Below, one piece after another: positions 37,027-45,154 of a stretch of DNA of 64,000 nucleotides. Source of the stretch: Rodentibacter caecimuris (lineage in GTDB: Bacteria; Pseudomonadota; Gammaproteobacteria; Enterobacterales; Pasteurellaceae); contig NZ_BBXJ01000001.1 in assembly GCF_001019715.1 (NCBI RefSeq), forward strand, positions 2,542,001 to 2,606,000. The letters are read 5' to 3'. The notes under the pieces are model-generated. The model was given only the letters and a program-made list of their open reading frames with translations, did no database searches and was not told the origin of the DNA. A program made the position numbers and the translations under genes. Within the stretch, counting starts at the first letter, position 1, and the number at the start of each line of letters is the position of its first letter.

Positions 37027-37072
37027 TTGCCGAATTAAATTAAGGGCTGATTTTTTATAAATGGAGAACCCA

Positions 37073-37534
37073 ATGCAAAATCCGATTGAAATCTACCAAA
37101 CTCAAGACGGGCAAACCCAAGTTGAAGTGTGGTTTGACAATGATACTGTGTGGCTTTCACAGGCACAGATGGTTACTTTATTTGGTAGAGATGTGTCTGT
37201 AATTTCTCGTCATATTCGTAATGCACTTGATGAAGGAGAAATTAGCGAAAAAAGCAATTTGCAAAAAATGCAAATTGCTTCTTCAGACCGTCCAGTAACA
37301 TTCTATGATTTAGAAACGGTTATTTCTGTTGGTTATCGAATTAAATCTCCTCAAGGCGTCACATTTCGCCGTTGGGCAACCGCTCGCTTGAAAGATTATC
37401 TTGTTAAAGGCTATGCCTTAAACCAAAAACGCTTGCAACAAAATGCGGTGGAATTGGAACAGGCATTAACGTTAATTTCTGATTATGCATATGTTAAAAA
37501 ATTAAACACGATAATAAAACGAGAAATAGACTAA
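37073..37534 (+). pseudogene. RhuM-family DNA-binding protein, truncated
   Basis: About 153 residues match the N-terminal part of the virulence RhuM family: DDTVWLSQAQMVTLFGRDVSVISRHIRN resembles the Bro/KilA-like DNA-binding start, and VISVGYRIKSPQGVTFRRWA is the family core. Full RhuM proteins are near 330 residues. Here the frame stops after AYVKKLNTIIKREID, so the C-terminal half is gone. The start at 37073 has GGAG upstream. It lies between hisD and a phosphatase gene, with the next ATG 3 bases after its stop. RhuM genes are common in mobile islands. Confidence 0.75.
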
Positions 37535-37536
37535 AT

Positions 37537-38106
37537 ATGAAAAGACGTATTATTTTGATTAGACATTGCACACCGAATATCCCTAATGCCGTATGTTCGG
37601 CTAAGCAGGCTAGTCATTATTTAGAGGAATACGATAAGACGGAAAATATTTGCTTTGATGAGATTGCAGCTTTTTCTTCTCCTGCAATACTAGATGAAAT
37701 TAAGCAGTGCGAATATGTATATAGTTCTCCTTTACCTCGTGCATATCTTACAGCGCGCCATTTGTTTGAACAGCATAAAATAATTATCTGTGATGCGCTT
37801 AAAGAATTTAATTTGAATATCGTAAATATTCCTTTTATTTCATTATCTGTACAGCATTGGTTTGTGATTTCTCGTTTACTTTGGCTCATTGGGCTAAATC
37901 GAGCGACTAAAACAGTGAAACAAGAAAAATCAAGGGTAAAGCGCTTTATACAGCAGCTGCCGGCAGAACAATGTTGTGTGATTGTTGCACACGGTTTTGT
38001 GATTCGAGAAATAAAAAACACACTATTAAAACAAGGCTTTTCTTGTATTTTTCTTGAAAAGCACGGATGTTTTAGTGTAACTATTTTAGAGTATAGCGGT
38101 GATTAG
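37537..38106 (+). CDS. histidine-phosphatase superfamily protein
   Basis: The 189-residue protein begins MKRRIILIRHCTPNIP, with the catalytic RH motif as RHC in place of the usual RHG. It also has YSSPLPRAYLTA (second Arg), the acidic KEFNL and the second catalytic His in VAHGFVIRE. These are the expected active-site parts of phosphoglycerate-mutase-like phosphatases, but the substrate is unknown. It begins right behind the RhuM fragment, inside the his operon. Its base composition is more AT-rich than the his genes. It looks intact and has no known role in histidine synthesis. Confidence 0.7.
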   Translation: MKRRIILIRHCTPNIPNAVCSAKQASHYLEEYDKTENICFDEIAAFSSPAILDEIKQCEYVYSSPLPRAYLTARHLFEQHKIIICDALKEFNLNIVNIPFISLSVQHWFVISRLLWLIGLNRATKTVKQEKSRVKRFIQQLPAEQCCVIVAHGFVIREIKNTLLKQGFSCIFLEKHGCFSVTILEYSGD

Positions 38107-38154
38107 ATAAAATATTACTTCTTAGGGTGATACAAAATAAAAGGAAACAATAAA

Positions 38155-38550
38155 ATGACAGAATTAAAATATCATTATCCTAAATTACAGATTTTTGTAA
38201 AAAGTCTTTTTTACACTCAAATACTAATGATATTAACAATTTTTATCTCTTATTGGTTAGCAAGAGAATATGATAATCCGTTTGAAAATATCAATGCAGT
38301 ATTTAATAAGGTATTTTTTATTTCTACAATACCTACTATTTTAAGTCTGTTATGGATTATTTATAAACAATATACACAATAAAATGAGGCTAAAGTATTT
38401 GCAGCTATTGTAATTGTATGGTTTATCAATATAGGTCTTTTAATCAGTTTTAATATACCTTTTTATAATAAAATCAATAAATTTTCAGGTGGCAGTTTAG
38501 CTATCGTTATTCCATTATTGATTATCCCGAAATTATTACCTAAAACATAA
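38155..38550 (+). pseudogene. small membrane protein gene with an in-frame stop
   Basis: A 131-codon frame with four probable membrane segments is interrupted by one TAA at codon 76 (38380-38382) and continues in the same frame (NEAKVFAAIVIVWFINIG and on) to a TAA at 38548-38550, just before hisC. The hydrophobic pattern runs on after the stop, so this was one protein until recently, or a short form is made. GGAAAC lies before the ATG. Family not recognised. Confidence 0.6.
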
Positions 38551-39717: not shown

Positions 39718-40803
39718 ATGCAACCCACTCTATTTATCGACCGAGACGGCACACTGATTGACGAACCGAAAACCGATTTTCAAATTGATAGTCTGGAAAA
39801 ACTGAAATTTGAGCCGAACGTTATCCCTGCTTTGCTGACATTGCAAAAACGTTACCGTTTGGTAATGGTGAGCAACCAAGACGGCTTAGGCACAAAATCC
39901 TTTCCGCAAGCGGACTTTGACAAACCGCATAATGCGATGATGCAACTCTTTTCATCACAAGGCATTCATTTTGACGAGGTGTTGATCTGCCCGCATAAGC
40001 CTGAAGATCACTGCGATTGCCGCAAGCCGAAAACGAAATTATTACAAAAATATCTCTATGAAAAACGTTTTGATCCCAGTCAAAGTTTTGTGATCGGCGA
40101 TCGGGAAACAGATGTGCAACTTGCTGAAAATCTCGGAATTCGAGCCTTACAATATCACCCTGAAAAGTTGAGTTGGGATCTGATTGTTGAAAAATTATCA
40201 ATGCAACCGACCGCTTGCACTGAGCGTCCCCCACGCTATGCCGAAGTGGTGCGTAAAACCAAAGAAACCGACATTAAGGTGCGAGTTTGGTTGGACGAAA
40301 CGGGGATGAATGAAATCAGCACCGGTGTGGGTTTTTTCGACCATATGCTCGATCAAATTGCGACACACGGCGGGTTCAGAATGAACGTGTCTTGCAAAGG
40401 GGATTTATGGATTGATGAACATCACACTGTCGAGGATACCGCCCTTGCGCTTGGCACAGCAATCAAACAAGCCCTTGGCGATAAACGGGGCATTGCCCGT
40501 TTCGGCTTTGTACTGCCAATGGACGAATGTAAAGCAGAATGTACCCTCGACTTATCGGGTCGCCCCTATTTCAAATTCAAAGCGAAGTTCAAACGGGATA
40601 AAGTGGGCGATTTCAGCACCGAAATGACCGAGCATTTTTTCCAATCCCTCGCCTATACCCTAATGGCGACCCTGCACCTGAAAACCAAAGGCGACAACGA
40701 CCACCACAAAATCGAAAGCCTGTTTAAAGTGTTCGGCAGAACGTTAAGACAGGCAATTAAGGTGGAAGGGAGTGAGTTGCCGAGTAGTAAGGGAGTGTTG
40801 TGA
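39718..40803 (+). CDS. hisB: bifunctional histidinol-phosphatase / imidazoleglycerol-phosphate dehydratase
   Basis: The 361-residue fusion has an N-terminal HAD phosphatase (about 1-165; DRDGTL nucleophile motif and the zinc loop [15 protein letters not shown]) and a C-terminal IGPD dehydratase (about 166-361; [29 protein letters not shown] and [12 protein letters not shown] manganese motifs). The fused form is typical of gamma-proteobacteria. The start at 39718 follows an AGAGGG site; a TTG 30 bases upstream is unlikely. It contains an Apl-type site at 40209. Confidence 0.96.
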
Positions 40804-40891
40804 TCCGTAGAGGCAGGTTTTGTATCCATCCGAAAGGGAGATTAGATTTAATAACGTTAAAAATTGTTATATAGAATATTAAGGAATTGCT

Positions 40892-41491
40892 ATGACTAAA
40901 GATAAAGCATTTGAATATTTAAAGGAACATGAAATAAAATTTGAGCCTGAAGGTGTAAATTTTAAAAGAACATATCGTTATCATAGATCAGAAAGAGATA
41001 CGTTTATATCTGCATTCTTACTTGCTTATGGTGAACATGGCTTGGATGTTTTTATAAATACAGTTCATTATAAAGTTATAACATATAAATATGGGATTTA
41101 TCGTTATATAACAAATTCAATTATAGATAAGTGGTGTAATCAATACTTTGGCCCATACTATGCTGAAGTTTTGTTAAGTAGGGAAAATACATTCATAATT
41201 AATTCAGAGAATGTGAATATCAGTAATGTTAAGCAAATCATTATTAATACAACCATTACGAATATAAAATCAAAGAAATCAGAAATTATTAATAATTCCT
41301 ATGAGTTTGAAAAAGATGATTTTATTAAATTAATTAACACAATAGAAAATATTGAAAAGAATTTATTAGAGAATAAAAAACAGGATATTAATGACTTGAA
41401 TTTTCTAGAAGAAATAAAGGAAAAAGTTCCTAAATTAAGTTCTTTTATTGCAGATATTATAACGATAATATCACCATTCTTTAAAGTTTAG
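40892..41491 (+). CDS. unknown AT-rich gene between hisB and hisH
   Basis: The 199-residue protein resembles no family I know. Residues 1-95 look globular with many aromatic residues. Residues 96-130 are rich in Asn, Ile and Thr (NSENVNISNVKQIIINTTIT), a linker-like or beta-stacked stretch. Residues 135-185 are charged and helical, and the end (SFIADIITIISPFFKV) is hydrophobic. Composition is far more AT-rich than the his genes, suggesting recent arrival. The arrangement recalls small proteins with an Asn-rich hinge and a hydrophobic tail found in genomic islands, but no function can be claimed. Confidence 0.6.
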   Translation: MTKDKAFEYLKEHEIKFEPEGVNFKRTYRYHRSERDTFISAFLLAYGEHGLDVFINTVHYKVITYKYGIYRYITNSIIDKWCNQYFGPYYAEVLLSRENTFIINSENVNISNVKQIIINTTITNIKSKKSEIINNSYEFEKDDFIKLINTIENIEKNLLENKKQDINDLNFLEEIKEKVPKLSSFIADIITIISPFFKV

Positions 41492-41499
41492 GGGAGCTT

Positions 41500-41565
41500 A
41501 TGATTGTAATCATCGATACCGCCTGAGCCAATCTTTCCTCCGTCAAATTTTCTTTAGGATGATTG
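41500..41565 (+). pseudogene. hisH: relic of a second hisH start
   Basis: After a GGGGAG ribosome site an ATG opens a frame reading IIDTA-stop-ANLSSVKFSLG. The intact hisH 1 kb downstream begins IIDTGCANLSSVKFAFD, so 12 of 14 positions from IIDT to VKF agree, with a TGA at the Cys codon. A second stop soon follows and the rest of hisH is absent. This is the broken 5' end of another hisH copy, not a chance match. Confidence 0.75.
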
Positions 41566-41633
41566 GGTAACTCAGTCTAAATCAAACAAGATCTAAGCTA
41601 AGTAAACTTCTATATCCTATTTGAGAAAAGAAA

Positions 41634-41774
41634 ATGCTAAATAAGTTTGATCATTGGTTAAGCCACCACAAGCCAAATCCTGATTTAAAAGGCACTAAAC
41701 GCTTTGAGGTAGAATTTTTATTCTTCGGCTTAAAAGAAGTGAGAGCTTGTTTATTATTCCAAAAGATAGAATAG
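41634..41774 (+). pseudogene. N-terminal fragment of a DUF817-like membrane protein
   Basis: A 46-codon frame (MLNKFDHWLSHHKPNPDLKG..., then RFEVEFLFFGLKEVRACLLF) resembles the start of DUF817 integral membrane proteins, which have a FGLKxxRACLF-like first helix. It ends in TAG right inside the first membrane segment, so only a stub is left. It lies between the hisH relic and the acetyltransferase gene. The family call is from memory and tentative. Confidence 0.35.
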
Positions 41775-41825
41775 ATATTTTACAAAAATTGAGTCAATCT
41801 AACCGCTTGTATAAGGAGAAAATCA

Positions 41826-42515
41826 ATGAGGTACAATCAATTTAATCAACCGATAGGTAAAACGTTACCCGATTTTTCTAACGGCGAGTTACCGAATATT
41901 GCGTTATTACAGGGGCAATATTGCCGTTTGGAGAAATTATCCGCCGTTAAACATACTGATGATTTATTTGAAGTCTATTCTTCACCACAGCATTATTGGA
42001 CTTATTTGCCTTTAGAGCCTTTTCAGCAAAAAGAGGCGTTAATGGCTTATTTAAGTCAGATTGAAACCTCACAAGATCCTTATTATTTTGCAATTATTGA
42101 TGAAGCGACTCAACAGGCTATCGGGACATTTGCGTTAATGCGGATTGACCCGCGTAATCGAGTGATTGAAGTGGGTTGGGTGATCTATTCCCCTAAATTA
42201 CAGCAAACCAGAATAGCGACAGAAGCCCAATTTTTACTTGCCGAATATGTGTTTGAAACATTGAAATATCGCCGTTATGAATGGAAATGTGATAGTTTAA
42301 ACGCACCTTCTCGCAAAGCTGCGTTACGTCTAGGTTTTATTTATGAAGGTACTTTTAGACAATCACAAGTTTATAAGGGAAGAAATAGAGATACGGCTTG
42401 GTTTTCTATGCTAGACAGTGAATGGGAGAAAAATAAAGCCCGTTTTCAACGTTGGCTTGCGAATGACAATTTTGATGAAAACGGCAAGCAAATATTATCT
42501 CTTTCTAAGATTTGA
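41826..42515 (+). CDS. GNAT acetyltransferase of the RimL/RimJ-like type
   Basis: The 229-residue protein has a single GNAT domain (about 30-200): VIEVGWVIYSPKLQQTRIATEAQFLLAEYVFE forms the acetyl-CoA binding strand and helix, and SRKAALRLGFIYEGTFRQS is the C-terminal signature. Relatives acetylate amino groups of small molecules or proteins; the substrate is unknown. It lies 22 bases upstream of hisH. A perfect Apl-type uptake core (41802-41810) precedes its ribosome site. It is intact, and its placement inside the his operon is unusual. Confidence 0.85.
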   Translation: MRYNQFNQPIGKTLPDFSNGELPNIALLQGQYCRLEKLSAVKHTDDLFEVYSSPQHYWTYLPLEPFQQKEALMAYLSQIETSQDPYYFAIIDEATQQAIGTFALMRIDPRNRVIEVGWVIYSPKLQQTRIATEAQFLLAEYVFETLKYRRYEWKCDSLNAPSRKAALRLGFIYEGTFRQSQVYKGRNRDTAWFSMLDSEWEKNKARFQRWLANDNFDENGKQILSLSKI

Positions 42516-42537: not shown

Positions 42538-43128
42538 GTGAATATCACCATCATCGACACAGGCTGTGCAAACCTGTCATCTGTCAAATTTGCCTTTGAT
42601 CGCCTGAATATTCAGGCGGAAATTAGCCGTGATTTAGCCAAAATCAAATCCGCCGACAAATTGTTACTCCCCGGCGTGGGAACGGCACAGGCTGCGATGC
42701 AAATTTTACAAGATCGCAATTTGATTGACGCAATCCGAAATGCGACTCAGCCAATGCTTGGCATTTGCTTGGGAATGCAGTTAATGACCGAATTTTCTGC
42801 CGAAGGCAATGTCGCAACGCTAAATGTGATGCAAGGCAAAACGAGCTTATTGCCGAATTGCGATTTACCCTTGCCGCATATGGGTTGGAATAAGGTTGGT
42901 TATGAGCCGGATCACCCGCTTTTTGCCGGGATTGAGCAAGATAGCCACTTTTACTTTGTGCATAGTTATGCGGTATTGCCAAATCAGCATACGATAGCAA
43001 CGGCTAATTATGGCGTGGCATTTTCTGCTGCGATTCAACGGGATAATTTCTATGGGGTACAGTTCCACCCGGAGCGGTCGGGGAAAAATGGGGCTATGCT
43101 ATTGAGAAACTTTGTAGAAAATCTATGA
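42538..43128 (+). CDS. hisH: imidazole glycerol phosphate synthase, glutaminase subunit
   Basis: Supplies ammonia to HisF (196 residues). The catalytic Cys lies in LGICLGMQLM (about 74-83) and the His/Glu pair in VQFHPERSGKNG (about 174-185). The start is GTG at 42538, with AAGGA about 8 bases upstream; ATG at 42536 is out of frame. It is the intact copy, with a dead copy of the first part 1 kb upstream. Confidence 0.95.
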   Translation: MNITIIDTGCANLSSVKFAFDRLNIQAEISRDLAKIKSADKLLLPGVGTAQAAMQILQDRNLIDAIRNATQPMLGICLGMQLMTEFSAEGNVATLNVMQGKTSLLPNCDLPLPHMGWNKVGYEPDHPLFAGIEQDSHFYFVHSYAVLPNQHTIATANYGVAFSAAIQRDNFYGVQFHPERSGKNGAMLLRNFVENL

Positions 43129-43137
43129 TTGCTAATT

Positions 43138-45154
<2,017 letters not shown>

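Follow-up and report, generated by a model that had tools for sequence, protein, structure and literature searches.

Between hisB and hisH, the his operon of Rodentibacter caecimuris carries a short, decayed start of hisH, wedged among pieces of three accessory-gene cassettes. This hisH head is very likely a stacking scar in a slot resembling a minimal mobile element (MME), left when new DNA was joined by homology at one end and with little homology at the other. That a recombination scar lies inside the operon had already been proposed in the initial annotation. It remains the best reading, with the head and the intact hisH belonging to different lineages.

The window analysed here comprises 64,000 nucleotides (RefSeq assembly GCF_001019715.1, contig NZ_BBXJ01000001.1, positions 2,542,001 to 2,606,000). 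Its genome is coded G000 and its genus code, g1, is taken as Rodentibacter (Pasteurellaceae); seven g1 genomes (G001-G005, G007 and G009) are referred to below as the core. The slot survey covers 107 stretches from relatives and the window's own, giving 108 loci, and is a comparison between species with one genome per species. From a contig scan of mostly distant species, 12 of 80 loci were used. The operon runs in the order hisD (35737), three accessory ORFs, hisC, hisB, orf199, the remnant, a DUF817 relic, acT, hisH, orf169, hisA and hisF (Table 1).

Table 1. Features of the his operon around the hisB|hisH gap of the window
Feature	Position	Strand	Basis or remark
hisB, left conserved flank of the slot	39718..40803	+	ORF; the listed ORF begins earlier, at TTG
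orf199, first cassette, intact	40892..41491	+	one other of 140 family genomes, G001, has a homologue (61-62%), likewise in the hisB|hisH gap
Remnant of the hisH head (to about codon 23) with two stops	41500..41567	+	sequence similarity to hisH; similarity beyond is faint and not significant
5' end of DUF817 membrane-protein gene, ATG at 41634, truncated	41631..41750	+	72-75% DNA identity to full 281-aa genes
Leader of the acetyltransferase cassette	41752..41825	+	collinear with the hisB-acT gap of G006
acT (GNAT acetyltransferase), last cassette	41826..42515	+	Pfam Acetyltransf_3; 97% in G016, 89% in G006
Intact hisH of non-core lineage, right conserved flank of the slot	42538..43128	+	ORF, gene trees
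orf169, occupant of the hisH|hisA gap	43129..43638	+	no Pfam match; singleton in ORF clustering
hisA, lineage apart from other g1 genomes	43647..44399	+	gene tree

The hisH remnant

The ATG at 41500 is directly preceded by AGGGGAGCTT, a purine-rich stretch resembling a ribosome site, and opens a frame that reads MIVIIDTA-stop-ANLSSVKFSLG-stop. The first stop, TGA at 41524-41526, takes the place of codon 9, where hisH has Cys, and the second TGA (41560-41562) that of codon 21. The intact hisH starts with GTG and reads MNITIIDTGCANLSSVKFAFDR. The sequence thus confirms the initial description of a ribosome site and ATG opening a frame that shares IIDT and ANLSSVKF with the intact gene, has TGA for Cys and soon ends.

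A chance match is ruled out. When 150 nt from either end of each of the six his genes (hisD to hisF) of the surveyed loci were searched by blastn against the gaps between those genes, the remnant scored 75.6 bits, against 39.4 bits for the best minus-strand control; the next plus-strand matches stood at 41 bits. The homology is solid over 41500-41567. Some alignments continue to about 41594 or further, but the stretch past 41567, scored alone, does no better than shuffles, 352 of 500 of which scored as high. No hisB tail was found by blastn or tblastn between the head and the DUF817 piece, and the stretch separating them gave no convincing match in the relatives' loci. The left joint of the scar lies in this decayed sequence, where its position is not resolvable at base level.

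Three stacked cassettes

The gap is a patchwork, and each of its three pieces is the sole occupant of the hisB|hisH gap elsewhere. This holds for orf199 in G001, for DUF817 genes (ORFs of 281-295 aa) in six relatives (G004, G005, G007, G009, G011 and G105) and for acT, with no other ORF of at least 100 aa in the gap, in G006, G016 and G138. The full genes to which the DUF817 piece was aligned lie in the hisB|hisH gaps of G004, G005, G007, G009, G011 and G032; the G004 copy belongs to Pfam family PF05675. The initial annotation had assigned this membrane stub to one donor segment together with the acetyltransferase, whereas it is the relic of a separate cassette.

The acT leader, the gene and the first bases of hisH are collinear with G006, at 87.7% identity over 811 columns. 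Copies of acT with at least 70% identity occur in eight genomes. In seven of them (G000, G016, G006, G138, G085, G099 and G069) the copy lies in the hisB|hisH gap or directly behind hisB, and in the eighth, G003, in the hisH|hisA gap. For orf199, neither a Pfam family above the cut-off nor a PADLOC match was obtained.

Accessory genes also occupy other gaps of the window's operon. The hisD|hisC gap (37061-38382) contains a RhuM-family gene that is short at 157 aa (relatives found in this gap reach 335 aa), a histidine-phosphatase-like gene and a 75-aa ORF, and these recur in G016, G006, G011 and G007 in differing selection and order. In the hisH|hisA gap, orf169 and a singleton ORF of G066 (L168) have N-termini that look alike by eye, though the two were clustered apart.

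The hisB|hisH gap as a slot

Both hisB and hisH are within reach in 102 loci, in one of which (L179 of G099) a remnant stands in for hisH. Of these gaps, 85 contain an ORF of at least 100 aa, 12 are shorter than 100 bp, and 5 are longer without such an ORF. The occupied loci span 29 of 34 genera and their ORFs form 51 families, counting as one (c52) a head-tail fusion in G032. The ORFs run with the operon in 114 cases and against it in 8, all of the latter in the 6.3-kb inserts of G012 and G014. Outside the Pasteurellaceae, the gap is closed (-1 to 20 bp) in 10 of 10 measured loci. Additional ORFs of at least 100 aa were also counted in the gaps hisD|hisC (31 of 84), hisC|hisB (33 of 96), hisH|hisA (68 of 107) and hisA|hisF (3 of 107); at the last junction the genes usually overlap, and it is almost never opened, while the other four often are.

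In five genomes (G069, G070, G071, G099 and G100; G003, on a short contig, stands outside this count) this gap is where the operon is broken in two, with the intact hisH far from hisB or, in G071, on another contig. In G099 and G100, the next ORF is a relative of c76 of G088, which we take to be NAD-salvage-like.

Representatives of 37 of the 51 slot families were scanned with PADLOC and 32 of these 37 with Pfam, the other 14 families, the G032 fusion among them, falling outside both scans. The curated Pfam cut-off was passed by 13 of the 32. PADLOC models were matched at E <1e-10 by 5 of the 37 (DUF1016/PDC-S02, TIR/PDC-S35, a pAgo-like protein, PDC-S14 and PDC-S64) and by one more weakly, and the idea of a 'defence slot' as a general rule was rejected on these counts.

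Uptake sequences were likewise dropped as special marks of the slot. Cores of the Hin type, as given in passages of PMC1626085, occur in the gap leaders 35 times forward and 3 times reverse in 13,975 nt (2.7 per kb) and in the rest of the slot 10 times in 99,106 nt, and the intergenic background of the window has 17 in 6,934 nt (2.45 per kb). Because the leaders are no denser than intergenic DNA, these sequences lend transformation no special support.

Lineages and the order of events

Over 68 ungapped nucleotides, the remnant is 82.4% identical to hisH of G002, 80.9% to those of G004, G005 and G007, 79.4% to that of G003 and 77.9% to those of G001 and G074. Its own downstream hisH reaches 63.2% and ranks 99 of 107. 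The divergence from the intact copy at the DNA level, on which the initial annotation had relied, is thus borne out, and the remnant is not closest to the downstream gene among the 107 hisH genes, as simple local duplication would have required by the criterion of that annotation. Ala follows IIDT, as in the remnant, in 10 of the 107 genes (those of the seven core genomes and of three genomes of genus g49); the intact hisH of the window has Gly. Further, positions 40780-41567 are collinear with hisB-orf199-hisH of G001 (73% over 816 columns), in which orf199 stands directly before a core-type hisH. Since orf199 has no other relative in the 140 family genomes (E 1e-4), this collinearity indicates that the head belongs with orf199. 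The comparisons support the assignment of the head to a hisH lineage other than that of the intact gene.

In the gene tree, the intact hisH groups with G016, G008, G068 and others outside the core. A constraint placing this gene and that of G016 with the seven core genomes was rejected (AU p 5.5e-5), although the p-value is weakened by the group having been named after earlier trees were seen. The type is nonetheless found within g1, where three other genomes (G008, G010 and G013) have their hisH in the same 20-row clade. The hisA tree places the window's copy beside those of G016 and G095 and away from the remaining g1 genomes, while hisD, hisC, hisB and hisF group with g1. Within g1, hisB sides with G006 and G011; its placement with the core alone was rejected (p 0.001) and with the core, G006 and G011 was not (p 0.08). 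In identity, hisB reaches 99% to G016 and 83-92% to 13 other genomes measured, all of the same genus. G016, which has another genus code, is the closest match to the operon as a whole, with hisD, hisC, hisB, acT, hisH, hisA and hisF 93-99% identical. As its gyrB is 76% identical, this suggests that the operon passed recently from one of the two lineages to the other.

One series of events probably accounts for the patchwork. The hisB|hisH gap is a slot that exchanges whole accessory genes, most likely by recombination in the flanking his genes, and the head would be the start of a hisH stranded at the right-hand edge of an older cassette, orf199. Incoming DNA, carrying another cassette and its own hisH, could have been joined homologously on the right, in or beyond hisH, and on the left with little or no homology, inside the first third of the hisH already present. 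The head of this first hisH would have been left next to orf199, with the intact hisH further on, and would then have decayed because the downstream gene supplies the function. The Pasteurellaceae include naturally competent species, and natural transformation may have been the route.

The initial annotation went further in regarding the remnant as probably the resident hisH left behind. The head may instead be the trailing arm of an imported orf199 cassette, as orf199 occurs in 2 of the 140 family genomes and the window hisB does not go with the core.

The same scar could have arisen with the opposite polarity, a serious contender that we place just short of probable. On this account hisB-acT-hisH came first, and orf199 with a hisH head, and perhaps the DUF817 relic, entered the gap afterwards in DNA of a core Rodentibacter donor, the head being the trailing arm of the donor DNA. 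It is favoured by the restriction of orf199 to G000 and G001, with a core-type hisH behind it in the latter, and by the grouping of the window hisB with G006 and G011 instead of the core. Moreover, as G016, the nearest operon, has the same acT-hisH pair without the orf199-head-DUF817 block, the block may postdate the intact hisH. Against this, the acT leader of the window matches that of G016 only over its last 29 nt and that of G006 over 73 nt; the G016 gap may itself have recombined and lost the block.

Scars in relatives

Stranded pieces of his genes recur in other genera. With plus-strand blastn matches above 50 bits, hisH heads were found in the window, G032, G085, G088 and G097, hisB tails in G032, G085 and G029, and pieces of hisD and hisC in the hisC|hisB gap of G139. 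A tblastn search with full his proteins recovered all of these loci but G097 and added two partial matches in other gaps, in G095 (hisH|hisA gap, 26% identity) and G123 (hisA|hisF gap). In all, six further genomes carry stranded hisH heads, which in three of them (G032, G085 and G029) are joined to a hisB tail. G032 has DUF817, a hisH head of about 25 codons, the hisB tail, an ORF and hisH; G085 has acT, a head of about 46 codons, the hisB tail, DUF817 and hisH; and G029 has an ORF, 15 nt of hisH (recognised by eye, with 11 of 13 nt matching), the hisB tail, an ORF and hisH. In G088 and G097, a head lies between ORFs on either side, followed by hisH. In G099, hisB is followed by an ORF, a head of 62 codons, acT and a second head of about 30 codons; the intact gene lies elsewhere.

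The geometry of these pieces is uniform. All hisH pieces found by blastn in the gaps are 5' ends whose alignments begin within 10 nt of the gene start, and all hisB pieces reach the end of hisB. Among loci with more than one slot ORF, 6 of 19 carry such pieces by blastn and none was detected in the other 13. Those with a single slot ORF have none (0 of 66), leaving aside L179 of G099, where a head forms the right flank. Not every head clearly comes from another allele, because those of G032 (90.3%, rank 3 of 107) and G088 (83.9%, rank 10 of 107) are also close to their own intact hisH; the hisB tail of G029 ties with its own hisB. At the joint, G032 shares CCGCTT if the hisH partner was G062-like and only CCG with its own hisH, and G029 and G085 share about 2-3 bases by eye. 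The eight heads (one each in the window, G029, G032, G085, G088 and G097, two in G099) cover at most about 62 of 196 codons, as would be expected if longer heads had been removed through recombination with the intact gene, or if joining were biased.

Two of these loci show further peculiarities. The head and tail of G032 (L039, 7038-7409) are fused in frame, leaving an open frame of 123 codons that may be translated. In the hisC|hisB gap of G139 (L161), a gene of opposite orientation is flanked by repeats of hisD pieces and of the hisC 3' end, in a scar resembling those above.

The position of the heads found, at the start of hisH, and the match of some cassettes to nuclease families (DUF1016/YhcG, HNH and PIN) might suggest that cassettes are moved by a dedicated recombinase or homing enzyme that carries the hisH head as its target sequence. 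This is very unlikely, as the slots share no ORF family (the most frequent one is present in 14 of the 85 occupied loci) and the scars include hisB tails and joints at variable positions. That the operon duplicated its own hisH head locally in tandem, for which the presence of two starts of one gene within 1.1 kb could be cited, is rejected as highly improbable because the intact hisH ranks only 99 of 107 in identity to the remnant, and both the differing residue behind IIDT and the collinearity with orf199-hisH of another species oppose it. It is equally hard to credit that MIVIIDTA-stop functions as a leader peptide or as an element coupling the downstream genes, in spite of its retained ATG and ribosome-site-like stretch, given the second stop that follows and the heads elsewhere, which vary in length and in some cases have no start or an early stop (G085, G097), unlike a conserved peptide.

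In the broader reading, to which we give not quite even weight, the his operon would serve cassettes throughout the Pasteurellaceae as a platform, open at four junctions (hisD|hisC, hisC|hisB, hisB|hisH and hisH|hisA) and nearly always closed at one, hisA|hisF. Cassettes, some of them phage-defence-like, would travel with his arms and pile up, and the heads and tails would record successive exchanges.

Relation to known systems

In passages of PMC3928620, type f isolates of Haemophilus influenzae are described as missing part of the histidine operon, with no mention there of inserts. Among the matches listed in the open-access literature, titles and the beginnings of abstracts gave no account of cassettes in the Pasteurellaceae his operon.

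Integron gene cassettes are single genes lined up mostly in one orientation, and the slot ORFs resemble them in this respect (114 plus, 8 minus). The likeness lies in ORF orientation, and the stacked units here differ in being bounded by pieces of his genes.

Homology-facilitated illegitimate recombination combines one homologous with one illegitimate joint, according to the passages of PMC3240628 that describe it. Such a pair of joints would leave stranded heads, and the G032 joint, which may share CCGCTT, would be in keeping with it. At the presumed homologous end, the window hisF groups with Rodentibacter again beyond the hisH-hisA stretch of other lineage. That reaction was measured in the laboratory in the passages concerned, whereas the his loci offer old natural products only, and the joint in the window has decayed.

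A close parallel is the MME, described in Neisseria and taken here as the relevant passages of PMC3082526 define it. Two conserved genes, hisB and hisH, flank the slot throughout the 102 loci, apart from the one hisH remnant. Whole-gene cassettes differ between species and include empty forms (85 of 102 occupied, 51 families, 12 empty). The hisH-hisA lineage differs from that of hisB and hisF, which is consistent with, but no proof of, homologous recombination in the flanks. As for the lack of a mobility gene of their own, orf199 and acT matched no mobility family in Pfam or PADLOC; two ORFs of the G088 gap (c78 and c79) presumably form an IS3-type element, and family c0, common in the hisC|hisB and hisH|hisA gaps, is one that we assume to be transposase-like. 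Two features set the his slot apart from the MMEs of those passages: its flanks are consecutive genes of one biosynthetic operon, and its stacked cassettes with stranded heads and tails of the flanking genes have no counterpart mentioned there. These stranded heads suggest that alternative single-gene cassettes at one slot are added and not only swapped, and a small pseudogene thereby becomes a readable joint. If the same is true at strain level, the Pasteurellaceae his operon would serve as a simple and testable model for how a core operon takes up accessory genes, and possible defence genes, when no dedicated mobile element is involved.
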